Source: Gluconobacter sphaericus NBRC 12467 (lineage in GTDB: Bacteria > Pseudomonadota > Alphaproteobacteria > Acetobacterales > Acetobacteraceae). From it: a stretch of 64,000 nt of DNA. Of this stretch, positions 41,536 to 55,308 are shown piece after piece. The position numbers were made by a program, and so were the translations under genes. The DNA lies in NCBI RefSeq assembly GCF_006539125.1, contig NZ_BJMK01000005.1, positions 124,001 through 188,000 of the forward strand, in the 5' to 3' direction. The number at the start of each line of letters is the position of its first letter. Position 1 is the stretch's first letter. Under the pieces are notes generated by a model, which saw only the letters and a list, made by a program, of their open reading frames with translations, was not told the origin of the DNA and searched no databases.

Positions 41536-42247
41536 GCAGACTGAACCCAGCACCGCGAATGCTGTGAATGAGCGGCGGCTCGCCGGGCACGTCGATCTTG
41601 CGACGCAGTTTCCCGATATGAACATCCACCAGGTTCGTCTGAGGAACGAACCGGTAATTCCACACATCCTCAAGCAGCATGGTACGCGTCAACACGGTGT
41701 CGGGACGGCGCATCATGTATTCCAGCAGCCGGAATTCGCGCGGCAGGAGATCGATTTCCTGCCCACTGCGAAACACCCGCCGCTCGATCAGGTCCATTTC
41801 AAGCGGACCGACCCTGAGCATCGTCACACGACTGTCCGTCGGGCGACGCAGCAGCGCTTCCAGACGGGCCGCCAGTTCTTCCATGGCAAAGGGCTTTGTC
41901 AGGTAGTCATCCCCCCCTGCCTTGAGGCCGCTCACCCGATCATCCACCGCAGAAAGCGCGGAGAGCACCAGAACGGGAATGTTGATCCGCTGGGTCCGCA
42001 CGCTTTCAATGACGGTCAGCCCGTCCAGTTCTGGCAGCATGCGGTCCACGATCATCAGATCGAACTGGCCCGTGCAGGCATGATCCAGCCCTTCGACACC
42101 TGTCGCGGCGCGCGTGACCTCATAGCCACGGGTCGTGAGTTCTTCGGCGACCTCGGCCGCAATACTCTCATCATCCTCAATCAGCAGGAGCCGGAGAGAG
42201 GATCCGACAGTGCGCTCGGGCGCCCCATGTTCTTGTACGGACGTCAT
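41522..42247 (-). CDS. OmpR/PhoB-family response regulator
   Basis: 241 residues. Receiver domain with acidic pair in LLIEDDESIA, phospho-acceptor Asp68 in LMIVDRMLPELDG and the TKPF Lys, followed by a winged-helix DNA-binding domain (LLPREFRLLEYMMRRPDTVLTRTMLLEDVW split over helices). Start: three in-frame candidates lie within 15 bases (GTG 42262, ATG 42253, ATG 42247); GAGG at a nine-base distance favours 42247. It overlaps the kinase gene by 14 bases, so both are made together. Likely controls the RND operon downstream. Confidence 0.9.
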   Translation of the reverse strand: MTSVQEHGAPERTVGSSLRLLLIEDDESIAAEVAEELTTRGYEVTRAATGVEGLDHACTGQFDLMIVDRMLPELDGLTVIESVRTQRINIPVLVLSALSAVDDRVSGLKAGGDDYLTKPFAMEELAARLEALLRRPTDSRVTMLRVGPLEMDLIERRVFRSGQEIDLLPREFRLLEYMMRRPDTVLTRTMLLEDVWNYRFVPQTNLVDVHIGKLRRKIDVPGEPPLIHSIRGAGFSLRVPG

Positions 42248-49788: not shown

Positions 49789-52293
49789 GTGGTAACAGTG
49801 CTGACCCAGTTTTCTCTTCGTCATGTAACCCTTCTGGGGACTTCTCTTCTTGGCTCTGCATTTGTCCTGATGATGGACGAGGGCCGGGCTGCAACAACGC
49901 AATCGGTCCCAGTTCAGCATAAACAGGCCCATGCAACCCCTGCGTCCCGGAAGACCATTTCCCGACCGGCTCCGAAACTGCCCGTAGAAGTGTCAGGGGG
50001 CAGTGAAGCGGTCGTTGTGACGGGAACGCGTGAGTTCGGAAAGAAGGCGCGAGACTCGATTGCTCCTGTCGACGTCGTGACGAATCGTCAGCTAACAGGC
50101 ACAGGCCAGCCCACACTCCGCGACTCTCTGGCGCTGTTGCTGCCATCCCTCACTGTTCCCACAGGCGGTTTTGATGCGGGCGCTCTGACTGACAGCATTT
50201 CGCTCCGTGGGCTCAACCCTAACGAAACGCTCGTTCTGGTGGACGGCAAGCGGCGCCATACCACGGCGAATATCTATGCAGATGGCGGACCGTCGCAGGG
50301 GGCCACGCCTGTCGATATCGACATGATTCCCATGTCCATGATCGACCATATCGAGGTCCTGCGTGACGGTGCGTCCGCCCAGTATGGTTCGGACGCCATT
50401 GCGGGGGTGGTCAATATCATTCTCAAGAAACAGAATCATGGTCTGACCATGCGTTCAAACACCGGGATCACAAGCGAAGGCGATGGTTTCCAGCAGGGCG
50501 TGTTCATCGATGGCGGCCTGAACCTGAACAATCGCGGCTTTGTTCACATCGGCGGCGATTTCGTTCATCAGGACCATACCTTCCGCTCGGGGAACGACAA
50601 CCGCACCAACACCAATGTCAACCAGCTTCTGGGACAGCCTGAACAGACGCGCGAGAGCGTCGCCATCAATGCGGGCTATGACATCACTGATAATATCCAG
50701 GCCTATGCCGGTGCGACCTATGCGCATCGTCATGCGGAATCCTATCAGAACTACCGCTTGCCCTCTTCGCTCGCCAAATATCCCGGCTACGCGGCGATCT
50801 ACCCTTATGGCTATTCCCCCATCGAGGCTCTGGAAGAAAACGACTACGAATTGACGGCTGGCCTAAAAGGCACACTGGCGGGCTGGCACTGGGACGTATC
50901 GTCAGTTTTCGGTCGGGATTATGATGCTGTAAACGCCGACAGCACCACGAATGTGGGGCTGTACACAGCTACAGGCGAAACCCCGACATCATTTGCCGCG
51001 CAGTCCTATAACAACACGCAGTGGACAAACAGCGTGGATCTAAGCCGCAAGTTCCGTACGTCGTTCTGGCCCTATGCCATCAACGTCGCAGGTGGTGCGT
51101 CCTATCGCTACGAAGCCTATGCAATCGGAACCGGCTCTCCGGCCAGCTATAGCTATTCCAGCTCAGACGGCTTTCCCGGCACCAACCCGGCCAATGCCGG
51201 AAAGTGGTCTCGTGACGTTGCGGCAGGATATCTCGACATCTCCACGAACCTGATGAAGCACTGGCAGGTCGATCTGGCCGGACGGATCGAGCATTACACG
51301 GATGTCGGCAACACGAAGACCGGCAAGATCTCGACTCGTTACGATTTCAGCCCACGCTTTGCGGTCCGCGGTACGTTCAGCAATGGCTTCCACGCCCCGA
51401 CGCTGGCGCAGGAACATTACTCCGCGCTGTCCGTCTCGCCGACCGCTGCCAGTGGCATCATTGCGGCGAATTCCGCCGGCGCACTCGCCAACGGCGCCTC
51501 GGCCCTGAAGCCGGAATCTTCCACGAGCGCCGAAGGTGGCATCATCGTTGAACCGATCAAGAAGCTGCATGTCACCGTCGACGTATATCAGATAGACCTG
51601 CGTGACCGGATCATGCCAGGGGGTACGATTTATGGCTCGCAGGCTTACAGCGCGCTCCAGGCGGATGGCTTCAACCTACCCACAGGATCTGAAAACTGGA
51701 CTGGAAGCCAGCTCGCCACGCACTGGTTTGCCAATGTCGCTAACACCCGCACGCAGGGCCTCGATCTGACGGCGACCTATCCGACCGATTTCGGGCGTTA
51801 TGGTCATGCGGACTGGGATGTTGCGATCAACCTTAACCGCACGCGCCTGCGCCATCAGGCCACCAGCTCGAATGGCACGCCGCTTCTGACGGCCCAGTCC
51901 ATCGCTTACATCACCACGGCGTATCCGCGTAGCAAGATCATCTTCGGCGGTACCTGGCATTCCGCGCGCAACAAATGGGCCGTCTCCGTCCACGAGATCC
52001 GTTATGGCGAAACGACGTCCCAGCTCACCTATTATACGGGACCTTACGCCTACTCCACGAGCCACTATCTGGAGTTCCAGAATGTGCCGAAATGGACGAC
52101 GAACGCTTCCGTTACCTATAACATCACGCCCAAGTGGAGCGCCACGATCGGGGGCAACAACATCTTCGCCAAGTTCCCGTCCGTTGTTCCTGAAGGGAAC
52201 CGCTATCTTGGCGTACCCAAATATTACATGAGCACGTCCCAGCTCGGCATGAATGGCGGATATTATTATCTGGACGTTTCAGCCCGCTTTTGA
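49789..52293 (+). CDS. TonB-dependent outer-membrane receptor
   Basis: About 834 residues. Signal peptide (LLGTSLLGSAFVLMM), then EAVVVTGTREFGKKARDSIA as the TonB-box region, a plug domain with SISLRGLNPNETLVLVDGKR and VEVLRDGASAQYGSDAIAGVV-like sequence (here IEVLRDG), and a 22-strand barrel ending YYLDVSARF with the terminal Phe needed for insertion. It takes up a ligand with energy from TonB; no siderophore or sugar gene nearby tells which. The start is a GTG at 49789 (another at 49798) with a poor ribosome site. Divergent from the MRJP gene. Confidence 0.92.
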   Translation: MVTVLTQFSLRHVTLLGTSLLGSAFVLMMDEGRAATTQSVPVQHKQAHATPASRKTISRPAPKLPVEVSGGSEAVVVTGTREFGKKARDSIAPVDVVTNRQLTGTGQPTLRDSLALLLPSLTVPTGGFDAGALTDSISLRGLNPNETLVLVDGKRRHTTANIYADGGPSQGATPVDIDMIPMSMIDHIEVLRDGASAQYGSDAIAGVVNIILKKQNHGLTMRSNTGITSEGDGFQQGVFIDGGLNLNNRGFVHIGGDFVHQDHTFRSGNDNRTNTNVNQLLGQPEQTRESVAINAGYDITDNIQAYAGATYAHRHAESYQNYRLPSSLAKYPGYAAIYPYGYSPIEALEENDYELTAGLKGTLAGWHWDVSSVFGRDYDAVNADSTTNVGLYTATGETPTSFAAQSYNNTQWTNSVDLSRKFRTSFWPYAINVAGGASYRYEAYAIGTGSPASYSYSSSDGFPGTNPANAGKWSRDVAAGYLDISTNLMKHWQVDLAGRIEHYTDVGNTKTGKISTRYDFSPRFAVRGTFSNGFHAPTLAQEHYSALSVSPTAASGIIAANSAGALANGASALKPESSTSAEGGIIVEPIKKLHVTVDVYQIDLRDRIMPGGTIYGSQAYSALQADGFNLPTGSENWTGSQLATHWFANVANTRTQGLDLTATYPTDFGRYGHADWDVAINLNRTRLRHQATSSNGTPLLTAQSIAYITTAYPRSKIIFGGTWHSARNKWAVSVHEIRYGETTSQLTYYTGPYAYSTSHYLEFQNVPKWTTNASVTYNITPKWSATIGGNNIFAKFPSVVPEGNRYLGVPKYYMSTSQLGMNGGYYYLDVSARF

Positions 52294-52402: not shown

Positions 52403-52428
52403 TACTATTCTTAAAGCAGTGAGTTTTT

Positions 52429-52734
52429 TGGTGTCCGCGAGAGGATTCGAACCTCCGGCCCCAGGATTCATACCACTTCGGCTTTCACCGCCATGCCCGC
52501 AAGCATGTTCGTGGTCTGGACTGTCTCTTCACCACGGCTCGGAAGCCAAGGTGTCGCCCGTACAGTCTCTACACCTTCTTGCCGGCACGCCGGAAAGCTT
52601 GGCTCGGGATTGGCACGATCAAGATGATCAGAGCGTTCCCCGAATTTGAGCGAATCCACCATGCAGTTTCCCATCATGGCGCCCAATTCAAAACCTTAGG
52701 AATCCTGTGCTCTATCCTGCTGAGCTACGCGGAC
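52429..52734 (-). tRNA. tRNA-Arg(CCU), split by a group I intron
   Basis: The 5' exon is 52734-52698 (37 nt) and the 3' exon 52468-52429 (40 nt, with encoded CCA). Joined, they give a 77-nt cloverleaf: acceptor GTCCGCG / CGCGGAC, D-stem GCTC / GAGC, anticodon stem CAGGA / TCCTG with loop TTCCTAA (anticodon CCT), and T-arm CCGGAGGTTCGAATCCTCTCG overlapping the acceptor. It reads the rare AGG codon. The intron lies directly after the third anticodon base, the known position for alphaproteobacterial tRNA-Arg(CCU) introns. Boundaries follow from the perfect anticodon stem after joining and the intron's final G. Confidence 0.95.
52469..52697 (-). other. group I intron (IC3-like) in tRNA-Arg(CCU), 229 nt
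   Basis: Seen on the minus strand: the 5' exon ends in U; the guide GGG near intron base 14 pairs with CCU (U-G at the splice site); P2 is CCATG / CATGG around GGGAAAC; the core holds CTCAAATTCGG, CGAGCCAAGCTT and AAGGTGTAGAGACTGTACGG; P7 pairs GAGACTGT (52569-62) with ACAGTCC (52524-18); and the last base is G. These blocks match the Azoarcus tRNA-Ile ribozyme that I know. There is no homing endonuclease reading frame, so it is a minimal, probably self-splicing intron. Confidence 0.93.
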
Positions 52735-52744
52735 AAACAAGTTG

Positions 52745-52773
52745 ACCGTATCTCAGTTACGGTGCCGCTGCAA
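52745..52773 (-). promoter_or_regulatory. tRNA-Arg promoter candidate
   Basis: Minus-strand TTGCAG (52773-52768), 17-base spacer, TACGGT (52750-52745), ten bases before the tRNA 5' end, a fitting distance for a short leader. Confidence 0.45.
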
Positions 52774-53184
52774 CCGTACCCCCGCCATATCAGATAGTGT
52801 AAAGATACCGGGAATTCCCCATACAAACCAGTGCGCCCAGGGAAAAGCCAGGAAAACGGGGCCTCTCGACGGACATATCATCGAGGATAAAGATTACCTG
52901 CCCTGTTTATGCTATCTCAACTTTTTCCGGTTAGTCTTTTAAGCGAGACTTCTGCTAAGGCCTTGCATGACACCTCTTTTCCATCAAAAGGTGATCTGTT
53001 TTTTCTGGTAGTACCAAATCCTGAGTAGGATAGAGCGCGTTCACAGCTGGCATCCTACACAATACCTCTTTGTGGGGGGTTTTGCAGGTTTGACTGGATT
53101 GAGAATTGCCATGATCTACGTTGCGGACAAAGATTTACTGGAACAGTCTGAAATTTACATGCCTGTCGGCAGGGTATCCTGATC
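52774..53184. other. 411-base stretch without a convincing gene
   Basis: AT-richer than its surroundings. It holds a terminator-like hairpin on the + strand (CACCTCTTTT / AAAAGGTG at 52971-52993 followed by a T-run) and a tiny open frame at 53111-53182 (23 codons, MIYVADKDLLEQSEIYMPVG then RVS) ending just before the regulator. The short frame might be a leader peptide but has no clear ribosome site. No promoter could be fixed. Confidence 0.4.
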
Positions 53185-55308
53185 GTGGAGGCAGCGAAGA
53201 TTGTGGACTGTTCACCCCGTCATATCCGCGAAACCGATCCCACCCTTCTGCGCGTGCGACTGATCGGACAGATGGAAGCAAGAACCCTTACAGGTGAAAG
53301 TGTGCTTCCGGTAGGAGGTAAAACACGGGCTCTTCTTGCTATTCTGGCTCTTTCCGACCGAAAACCTGTCCTGCGATCACGGCTGGCAGAACTGCTGTGG
53401 AGCCAGCGACCTGAAGAAATGGCACGCGCATCCCTCCGCCAGGAAATTCATCGCCTCTTGGATGCGCTAAGTCCTCTGGGCGCGGACGTCATCGATGTTC
53501 AGCGACACGCGCTGGCCCTGAAACCGGCCCTCACTTCGGTAGACGCCGAGAGGCTGCTTACCATCAGCGTCCGGACGATCGACAGCGTAACCCTGCCTGA
53601 CGAACTGCTCCTCGGTGAGCTGACAGGAGTGGATCCGGCGCTGGACGAGTGGCTTATTCAGCAGAGGGAACGCCTATCAACGCATCTCCGGCAGGTTTAT
53701 GAAAGTGCCGTCCGGGAATTGACCGATCCGGATCAGGTCGACAACGTAGCCGAGCGGCTGCTGAAATTTGACGACCTGAACGAAGTTGCCTGGCAGGCCA
53801 GGGTTCAGATGGCCCTGCATCGTGGTGACACGGGGCGGGCAATCGCACTCGCTGAGCAGATGACAAATCTTTTCAGAGACGCCGAAAGACACACACTTAC
53901 TCCGGCCACACAAGCGCTCATCAGAAGTATTCCGACTGAAAACAACTGCAAGGATCTGGCTCACGACTTGTCTCAGGCGCCACCGGCTGCGGGAACTCCT
54001 GAAGCGTCTTTCACAGCGCCAGTACAGCGCCCCGATCCGATGCTTGCCCTGCCGCTGCATTACGCATCGCAACACGCAGCTGCGGCAGAACCACGGAAAA
54101 TCTCACTGGTTTTTCTGACCCCGTCATCCACGGATGAAACGCTTGCCGAACACGGCCAAAACTTACGGGATCAGCTGGAACTCCTGTTCGTCAACATGGG
54201 GATTTTCGACATTCTTGCACTTCCCGAAACGTCCCTACCCGACCCTGTGAGCGCGACTGCGGCTTACCGGGCCTGGGGCATGGACTATATCATTTCCGCC
54301 AATCTGCGGGCAGGGCCTGAGGGGAGTGAAAACCGGCTGATCCTCCGGGTTCTGGACGCTCGGCACGGGGGCGTCATCATCTGGGGAACGCATTATGATT
54401 TCCCGCGCTCCGGGCCGGATACGGCAAAAAACAGCCTCCTCGCGCCCGCCCAGGCAATGCAGTGGAGCATCTTCGTCACCGAAGCCCGGCGCATTGCAGC
54501 TCGCCCAGATACAGAACTTTCAGCGCTCGGAATGGCGCTGCGGGCTTTCACCCTGCTCATGCGGCATGATTCTTCGCTTTTCAGCCGCATTGGATTTCTA
54601 CTGGAACAGGCCGACGCACTGGACAGAGACGACGGTGCGATTGCACTTATTGATGCCCTGCACTGCTATATTCGCTTCCTGAATGAATGGAGCCCTGAAA
54701 CCGAAGCTGTTTTTGCCCGAGGTCTTCGCAGCGTTAGAGCCGCCATTTCGCTGATGCCAGATCTGCATGCTGTCGAAGTTCTTCTCGCTGCCTACCTGAT
54801 GTACGAGCCTACCATGCACAGTACGGCTCTCTCGGTTGCCCAGTCCGCGGCCGAGGGAATCTTGCGGATCGAGGGATATCACAAGGATTCTCCTGATCTT
54901 CTGATGGCAGAGATTGTTCTGGCCCTGCTAGACGAAAAGATGACGACAGCAGCAGAAAAGGTAAAGATTCTGCTGAAAAACGGGTATCGCTCACAGTTGC
55001 TTGAACTCCTGCGTCCGGTTTTCATGATGATCCTGCTACTGGGAGAAGACTATCAGGAAGTCATCTCGATGGGGCGGTTGATGTCCGGCCTTTATCCGTC
55101 CTGCCCAAGTTCGCTGCTTTATTATCTCATTGCCCTGGTTGAAGTGGGTGACTGCACCGAAGAGATGCATCAGGTCTGTCGCCACCTTCTTCGTCTGGTG
55201 CCAGATCTGACCATTTCCAAAGCTGTCAGCCGCTTTCCTTACGCGGGAAAAACACGACTGACGAGGCTGGCTGAAGCGTTGGGCAAGGCTGGCTTGGCCG
55301 AAGGATAA
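53185..55308 (+). CDS. BTAD/SARP-like transcriptional regulator with TolB-like and helical domains
   Basis: About 707 residues. N-terminal winged-helix DNA-binding domain (about 22-105, LRVRLIGQMEARTL, LRSRLAELLWSQRPEEMARASLRQEIHRL in part), bacterial transcriptional activation domain of TPR helices (about 115-250, LDEWLIQQRERLSTHLRQVYE), a linker, then an alpha/beta domain (about 305-415: RKISLVFLTPSSTDETLAE, YIISANLRAGPEGSENRLIL) like the TolB-N domain of CadC/cyclase-type regulators, and a C-terminal helical repeat region. No membrane helix. Start GTG at 53185 or GTG at 53203; the latter has GGAGG 11 bases upstream. Target genes unknown; no clear partner adjoins it. Confidence 0.75.
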   Translation: MEAAKIVDCSPRHIRETDPTLLRVRLIGQMEARTLTGESVLPVGGKTRALLAILALSDRKPVLRSRLAELLWSQRPEEMARASLRQEIHRLLDALSPLGADVIDVQRHALALKPALTSVDAERLLTISVRTIDSVTLPDELLLGELTGVDPALDEWLIQQRERLSTHLRQVYESAVRELTDPDQVDNVAERLLKFDDLNEVAWQARVQMALHRGDTGRAIALAEQMTNLFRDAERHTLTPATQALIRSIPTENNCKDLAHDLSQAPPAAGTPEASFTAPVQRPDPMLALPLHYASQHAAAAEPRKISLVFLTPSSTDETLAEHGQNLRDQLELLFVNMGIFDILALPETSLPDPVSATAAYRAWGMDYIISANLRAGPEGSENRLILRVLDARHGGVIIWGTHYDFPRSGPDTAKNSLLAPAQAMQWSIFVTEARRIAARPDTELSALGMALRAFTLLMRHDSSLFSRIGFLLEQADALDRDDGAIALIDALHCYIRFLNEWSPETEAVFARGLRSVRAAISLMPDLHAVEVLLAAYLMYEPTMHSTALSVAQSAAEGILRIEGYHKDSPDLLMAEIVLALLDEKMTTAAEKVKILLKNGYRSQLLELLRPVFMMILLLGEDYQEVISMGRLMSGLYPSCPSSLLYYLIALVEVGDCTEEMHQVCRHLLRLVPDLTISKAVSRFPYAGKTRLTRLAEALGKAGLAEG

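Follow-up and report, generated by a model that had tools for sequence, protein, structure and literature searches.

The question raised by this locus is whether a tRNA-Arg(CCU) gene that is split by an insertion in its anticodon loop is a working gene cut by a self-splicing group I intron or a relic, and whether such an intron was inherited or recently acquired. The window is the whole stretch of Gluconobacter DNA that was analysed, 64,000 nt in length.

Introns of tRNA-Arg(CCU) were first described in Agrobacterium tumefaciens (Reinhold-Hurek and Shub 1992) and then in other alpha-purple bacteria (Paquin et al. 1999), as related in excerpts of PMC7717549; by description, these are of the same kind and in the same host tRNA as the window intron, in line with the statement in an earlier sequence-only reading of the window that introns are known at this site in some alphaproteobacteria. 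Excerpts of the same paper report that the tRNA-Arg(CCU) intron of Bartonella bacilliformis, BbgpI, is spliced both in vivo and in vitro, and that its gene was unannotated, with tRNAscan-SE finding the tRNA only once the intron had been removed. BbgpI is likened to the window intron by description, both being alphaproteobacterial and hosted by tRNA-Arg(CCU); BbgpI is flanked by CCT (PMC7717549, excerpts). In Asaia bogorensis, like the window's host an acetic acid bacterium, one tRNA (Arg) is interrupted by a stretch with homology to a group I intron, according to a table note in PMC4596401. In cyanobacteria, 'group I introns' of 22−49 nt have been listed in tRNA-Arg, -Gly and -Lys (PMC5733544, excerpt), but were judged too short to hold a group I core. 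The window intron thus adds one member to a known type at a known site, and the locus matters more as an entry point to its relatives than by itself.

The interrupted tRNA-Arg(CCU) gene

When introns were allowed, ARAGORN placed a tRNA-Arg(CCU) gene of 306 bases on the minus strand of the window (52734-52429); the strand had gone unstated in the sequence-only reading. A 229-base insertion follows base 37 of the gene, that is U36 of the anticodon, so that its left flank is CCU; the described alphaproteobacterial introns of this tRNA lie in the anticodon, flanked by CCU. Removal of 52697-52469 (minus) gave a 77-nt tRNA with a clean, complete cloverleaf and an encoded CCA, as had been proposed from the letters. 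With introns disallowed, ARAGORN listed no tRNA anywhere in the 64,000-nt window.

Because the intron and the 3' exon both start with AA, the sequence itself would also permit a cut up to two bases further right. It was placed at 52698/52697 because, by the group I rule, a U precedes the cut and a G is last in the intron. The rule, with the U paired to a guide G, is also stated in an excerpt of PMC11915505. This freedom to slide was absent from 33 of the 80 distinct tRNA-Arg(CCU) introns, and the final G claimed for the window intron was present in all 80, counted with the parser not requiring it. The coordinates of the gene, the intron helices and the neighbours are collected in Table 1.

Table 1. 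Features of the tRNA-Arg(CCU) locus, in window coordinates
Feature	Position	Strand	Basis
5' exon of tRNA-Arg(CCU), 3' end is anticodon CCU (U36)	52698-52734	minus	ARAGORN with introns
Group I intron, 229 nt, last base G at 52469	52469-52697	minus	ARAGORN boundary; RF00028, 48.7 bits; model R1
3' exon of tRNA-Arg(CCU), CCA encoded	52429-52468	minus	ARAGORN with introns
Guide (IGS) GGG, pairs with exon CCU 52700-52698, U-G at cut	52682-52684	minus	P1 fold; guide fit in 80/80 distinct Arg introns
AUU beside guide, can pair with 3' exon AAU (52468-52466), candidate P10	52685-52687	minus	Reading of the sequence; inference
P2 hairpin, GAAA loop	52657-52681	minus	Fold
P3 5' strand, partner 52554-52559	52648-52653	minus	Fold and covariation; both-side changes in 5/6 pairs
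P3 3' strand	52554-52559	minus	Fold and covariation
P4 5' strand, partner 52604-52608	52639-52643	minus	Both-side changes in 1/5 pairs, four invariant
P4 3' strand	52604-52608	minus	Fold and covariation
P5 hairpin	52614-52635	minus	Fold and covariation
P6 with P6a	52573-52603	minus	Three P6 pairs invariant; both-side changes in 5/5 P6a pairs
P7 5' strand GACUG, partner 52519-52523	52563-52567	minus	Covariation
P7 3' strand CAGUC	52519-52523	minus	Fold and covariation
P8 hairpin	52530-52553	minus	Fold and covariation
P9 region, two hairpins, one with GAAA loop	52473-52514	minus	Fold alone
TonB-dependent receptor, converges on tRNA	49789-52293	plus	Pfam PF00593, PF07715
Regulator-like protein	53185-55308	plus	Trans_reg_C, 18.3 bits, under its cut-off of 26.2

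Three ORFs of 72−76 aa lie over the tRNA and intron (52419-52649, plus; 52468-52686, minus; 52579-52797, plus) and could be annotated as false proteins. None matched a Pfam family at E <= 0.1. The reading frame by which a mobile intron with a homing endonuclease is recognized was accordingly not found in these 229 nt or in the three overlapping ORFs, in agreement with the earlier reading, and an endonuclease-bearing intron was ruled out. A protein-spliced intron of archaeal type was likewise ruled out, by the bacterial host and the group I core. A promoter scan for the tRNA-Arg(CCU) gene returned no promoter-like site.

Matches to covariance models

The Rfam model RF00028 (Intron_gpI) matched the window at 52699-52497 (minus) over its full length (model 1-253 of 253). 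The E-value of this match was 3e-11 in a search of 751 bases and 2.9e-11 genome-wide; in the genome, one further place reached E <= 1. At 48.7 bits, the match is below the gathering score of 50, which is why a default Rfam scan of the window lists nothing. The Rfam hit anticipated from the sequence thus spans the full model at E 3e-11 but falls short of the model's own cut-off, and the expectation that standard finders overlook the gene held for both ARAGORN and Rfam at their defaults. A custom model, R1, gave 142.5 bits at 52657-52512, the window intron being itself part of that model; R1 scores within the taxonomic family are high by construction because R1 was built from members of it, this intron included.

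The Rfam model was also run on 150 genomes of the taxonomic family, where 39 gave a match at E <= 0.001 and only seven one above its cut-off. With R1 at E <= 0.001, the intron family was found in 187 of 397 genomes and in 56 of the 102 genera of the taxonomic family. Default searches thus miss such genes, and counts of tRNA genes in acetic acid bacteria are likely one gene short. tRNAscan-SE 2.0, according to its own description, was not designed for finding such introns; fMet and Ile2 cases are mentioned there (PMC8450103).

Fold and covariation of the intron

A minimum-energy fold of the precursor lacked the group I core, as is expected for a pseudoknotted fold. The drawn structure was compared with 32 intron cores of the taxonomic family (alignment A1, 32 of 41 introns). 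Nine were left out: L034, L035 and L037, which did not meet the extraction pattern, L033 and L052, whose ends were misplaced, and L044, L051, L070 and L071. Of all cells in the alignment, 96.9% were paired, compared with 30−44% for control structures slid by 1−3 columns, a control that favours the drawn structure because the latter was drawn partly from these same sequences. Changes on both sides were seen in 21 of 34 pairs, a number reached by none of 500 shuffles.

The claimed P7 helix, which forms the guanosine site, had all five pairs formed in 32/32 rows; two of these pairs showed compensatory types and three were invariant. The outer pair was GC in 22 introns, AU in seven and UA in three. 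Such compensatory types are stronger evidence than the slid control, and the covariation supports the P3-P8 and P7 helices. In the fold, P1 was lengthened by the intron bases AA pairing with UU, and it contained the guide GGG with the U-G at the 5' cut that had been noted from the sequence. The tRNA-Ile intron of Azoarcus is small and has GAAA loops in P2 and P9. The window intron, a candidate for the Azoarcus-like subgroup IC3, shares these loops by description, whereas the host tRNA differs.

In the folded transcript, the anticodon CCU would pair with the guide GGG to form P1. A guanosine bound at P7 would then attack after U36, and the freed 5' exon would attack after the final G to yield the 77-nt tRNA. 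Splicing has been demonstrated for BbgpI, a relative whose host Bartonella belongs to another order of Alphaproteobacteria, and the mechanism is strongly implied for the window gene.

Copy number and the reading of AGG

The assembly (97 contigs, 3.06 Mb) was searched with a tRNA model, which returned 43 places, 41 of them over the cut-off; these were then read with ARAGORN. No other tRNA-Arg(CCU) was found among them, so that the predicted lack of a second intact gene held for the assembly. Intact genes for tRNA-Arg(UCU), Arg(ACG), Arg(CCG) and Lys(CUU) were present. Three tRNAs were absent from the assembly search, namely Ile-GAU, Ala-UGC and, by our own reading of the two CAU tRNAs, the initiator Met. 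As these usually sit in rRNA operons, some repeats are probably missing from the assembly. Near a contig end (G000:C50:10695-10759, L084; 21.1 bits) lay an isolated 3' piece resembling a tRNA, with GCCA at its end, perhaps the remnant of an attachment site.

Across 25 long ORFs of the window, AGG made up 32 of 15,041 codons, and tRNA-Arg(UCU) may be able to read it too. With AGG so scarce and tRNA-Arg(UCU) intact, dependence on splicing would be less strict than for the tRNA-Lys(UUU) of the same genome described below. The earlier proposal that the rare AGG decoder is made to depend on self-splicing would hold for the dedicated AGG reader.

Distribution and inheritance of the Arg intron

With model R1 and hosts read from the exons, the intron was found in the tRNA-Arg(CCU) of all 26 Gluconobacter genomes. 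The nearest intron to that of the window was 96% identical. A scan with the neighbouring regulator gene returned five named relatives, all Gluconobacter (67−90% identity), and each carried the intron. Among 385 genomes drawn from the class, 49 had a member of the intron family, five of these genomes being of the taxonomic family. The statement that each such intron is rare was contradicted by the counts for the genus and for the taxonomic family (187/397). The distribution among alpha-purple bacteria has been called sporadic, in contrast to the constant presence of this type in the genus.

With its anatomy, boundaries, covariation and conservation observed, the only tRNA-Arg(CCU) gene found in this Gluconobacter assembly is almost certainly interrupted after U36 by a group I intron that lacks an endonuclease and belongs to the alphaproteobacterial tRNA family; the transcript of the gene would self-splice to the 77-nt tRNA. 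Two other accounts were weighed against this. Were the gene a pseudogene or its intron a decayed remnant, splicing would have been lost and AGG would be read by tRNA-Arg(UCU), and both the Rfam score under the cut-off and the intact tRNA-Arg(UCU) fit such a history. It is nevertheless very improbable, since the interrupted gene was kept throughout the genus, the core helices are preserved by compensatory changes and the final G never varied among the distinct Arg introns. A recent, sporadic horizontal insertion in this strain, to be expected from the rarity assumed in the earlier reading, is hardly credible. Sporadic distribution, horizontal transmission and transposition are named in the title of Paquin et al. 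1999 (reference list of PMC7717549), but an insertion of this kind is already contradicted at the genus level by the 26/26 count. It is opposed further by the regulator gene, which adjoins the intron-bearing tRNA at 21 of the 28 loci that were searched, a count that takes in the window's own genome, and by the intron tree, in which the 26 Arg introns of the genus cluster with a support of 90. From the genus-wide presence and this grouping, the Arg copy was inherited vertically within Gluconobacter rather than being a sporadic visitor. Older transfers of the intron between families are possible.

Host range and guides of the intron family

The parser was given 126 loci, of which 122 were parsed, corresponding to 110 distinct introns. 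It required a U before the cut and a final G, and its 122/122 counts for these two features are therefore no evidence. Hosts were read by eye from the exons, as ARAGORN misnamed several (e.g. Tyr for Lys, His for Arg); loci L131, L134, L142 and L143, with a differing core motif, stood outside the parsed set and their hosts were also read by eye.

The hosts comprised eight tRNA isoacceptors, three of them found once each. Arg(CCU) accounted for 92 of the 122 parsed loci and Leu(UAA) for twenty loci, one of them a plasmid. Lys(UUU) was the host at L002, L049, L142 and the phage locus L216, Lys(CUU) at L133, L136 and L139, and Thr(GGU) at L050, L058, L137 and L143, while Leu(CAA) (L038), Arg(UCU) (L069) and Asn(GUU) (L033) were single. 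L033 matched R1 weakly (E 4.6e-8) and Rfam well (78.5 bits). Cuts in the family fell after bases 33 to 36. One interrupted Leu tRNA (L068, G024:C1:443800-445100) was left out, no canonical cut giving a seven-base anticodon loop having been found in it; its intron is possibly decayed or unusual.

The guide fitted its own host exon in all 110 distinct introns when scored as U-G plus two pairs, with G-U allowed and at most one base off the aligned position. On the same terms, foreign exon triplets also fitted in 542 of 840 tests. An initial control that scanned all G positions gave no discrimination and was replaced by an anchored control. With Watson-Crick pairs only, own fits were 80/80 for CCU, 20/20 for CUU, 3/3 for GGU, 3/3 for UCU, 1/1 for GUU, 1/1 for ACU and 0/2 for UUU. 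The corresponding foreign fits were 1/480 for CCU introns (six triplets), 9/120 for CUU introns (all to UCU), 0/18 for GGU, 0/6 for GUU, 3/18 for UCU, 4/12 for UUU and 1/6 for ACU. Under this stricter scoring, the two Lys(UUU) introns that are of the window genome's type fitted their own exon in neither case and both CCU and UCU in 2/2, the Lys(CUU) introns were also fitted by CCU in 2/3 and by CUU in 1/3, and the Leu(CAA) intron was fitted by CCU too. Guide and host thus match clearly in the Arg(CCU), Leu(UAA), Thr and Asn introns; in the Lys types, the guide of which, GGGAG, includes the Arg guide, the match is weak.

A quick tree of the introns called for 12 or more host changes, where seven is the lowest number possible and shuffling gave a mean of 28.8. 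One clade (support 97) held 78 of the 80 distinct Arg introns of the sampled genomes, a sample that the named Agrobacterium and Bartonella sequences stand outside. Single host moves should not be read from this tree because only 15 of its 107 inner branches were starred and the branch of L033 is very long. Resting on the quick tree, the wider intron family appears to have switched tRNA hosts several times, with the guide changing along. Relatives with guides matched to different anticodons offer a natural experiment on host change by group I introns without an endonuclease. In the titles and abstract beginnings of the open-licence literature, none of the matches listed concerned tRNA-Lys introns or introns with multiple tRNA hosts in Alphaproteobacteria. 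The spread over eight isoacceptors and the plasmid Leu copy were also absent among the open-licence matches listed, in a search that was not aimed at the plasmid copy.

Copies on plasmids and phage

A distant search with the window intron matched 1265 plasmid records and three phage records. Three plasmid records were inspected, and in each an intron of the family interrupted a tRNA-Leu(UAA) gene near aac(3)-IId, as at L213 2926-3224 (NC_004464.2, pCTX-M3). The plasmid introns scored 142−145 bits with R1. When the plasmid gene from one record was used as the query, it was found in 1280 of 72,556 plasmid records, 1273 of them at >= 99%, and in 635 of 5426 complete E. coli genomes. At this gene, no annotated feature was present in the ten E. 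coli records listed, where RefSeq annotation includes RNA genes; the same lack at the plasmid copies is uninformative because the plasmid tables hold no RNA genes. The tree neighbours of the plasmid Leu(UAA) intron were alphaproteobacterial Leu(UAA) introns. Being carried on plasmids gives the intron family a possible route of spread, one that is open to test.

Gordonia phage Daredevil (NC_048021.1, about 41,820-42,131; L216 879-1190) carried a tRNA-Lys(UUU) gene with an intron of the family, about 570 bases from an annotated integrase. The intron scored 113.9 bits with R1, and Rfam gave no match at this locus at E <= 0.001. An annotated HNH gene lies near the intron and had no Pfam match at E <= 0.001.

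On balance we lean towards a single small group I intron lineage in Alphaproteobacteria that has been repeatedly re-aimed, through changes of a few guide bases, at the anticodon loops of Arg(CCU), Arg(UCU), Lys(UUU), Lys(CUU), Leu(UAA), Leu(CAA), Thr(GGU) and, in a very divergent form, Asn(GUU). It would travel in whole tRNA genes aboard mobile DNA, among which are an actinophage and, on resistance plasmids, the segment with aac(3)-IId, and the only complete AAA reader of the window's genome would depend on such an intron.

A second intron in tRNA-Lys(UUU)

That reader was found outside the window (G000:C19:12836-12549, L002), as a tRNA-Lys(UUU) gene with a 212-nt intron of the same family. 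The gene was named Tyr by ARAGORN, and RF00028 matched the intron at G000:C19:12812-12614 with 34.2 bits. A cut after base 35 restored the seven-base loop and left a final G. Among the 25 other genomes of the genus, 24 have an intact tRNA-Lys(UUU) to which the joined exons were identical in 76/76 positions, and for the last the identity was 95%; none of these 25 had an intron in this tRNA. L002 was the only complete tRNA-Lys(UUU), and the sole complete AAA reader, found in the assembly.

A second copy (G000:C12:48051-48013; L196, L200) consisted of bases 1-39 only. Its upstream flank matched 14 of the 25 relatives, and past the truncation lay a transposase remnant (DDE_Tnp_1, 26.4 bits, cut-off 23). 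The flank 3' of the C19 gene matched the sequence that follows tRNA-Lys in 11 of the 25 relatives, at up to 89% over 1.2 kb, and the region 5' of it sits elsewhere in the relatives, 29−178 kb off in the ten genomes with both on one contig. These split flanks suggest that the native tRNA-Lys(UUU) locus was broken by a rearrangement, the sole complete gene left in the assembly being the one that bears the intron.

A recent transposition, inside this genome, of the Arg intron into tRNA-Lys would be in keeping with two introns of one family in a genome whose 25 relatives have none in tRNA-Lys. This origin is unlikely, however, as the nearest intron among the fetched loci was that of a tRNA-Lys(UUU) from another genus (83.5% over 212 nt), compared with 75% over 185 nt for the genome's own Arg intron and 75−76.5% over 185−188 nt for the nearest Arg introns of its genus. 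The tree likewise joined the two Lys introns with a support of 88, on an unstarred branch.

The TonB-dependent receptors encoded at window 49789-52293 and at L200 15950-18592 are paralogous (44% identity). One adjoins the Arg intron gene and the other lies about 900 bases past the truncated tRNA-Lys, which may be chance.
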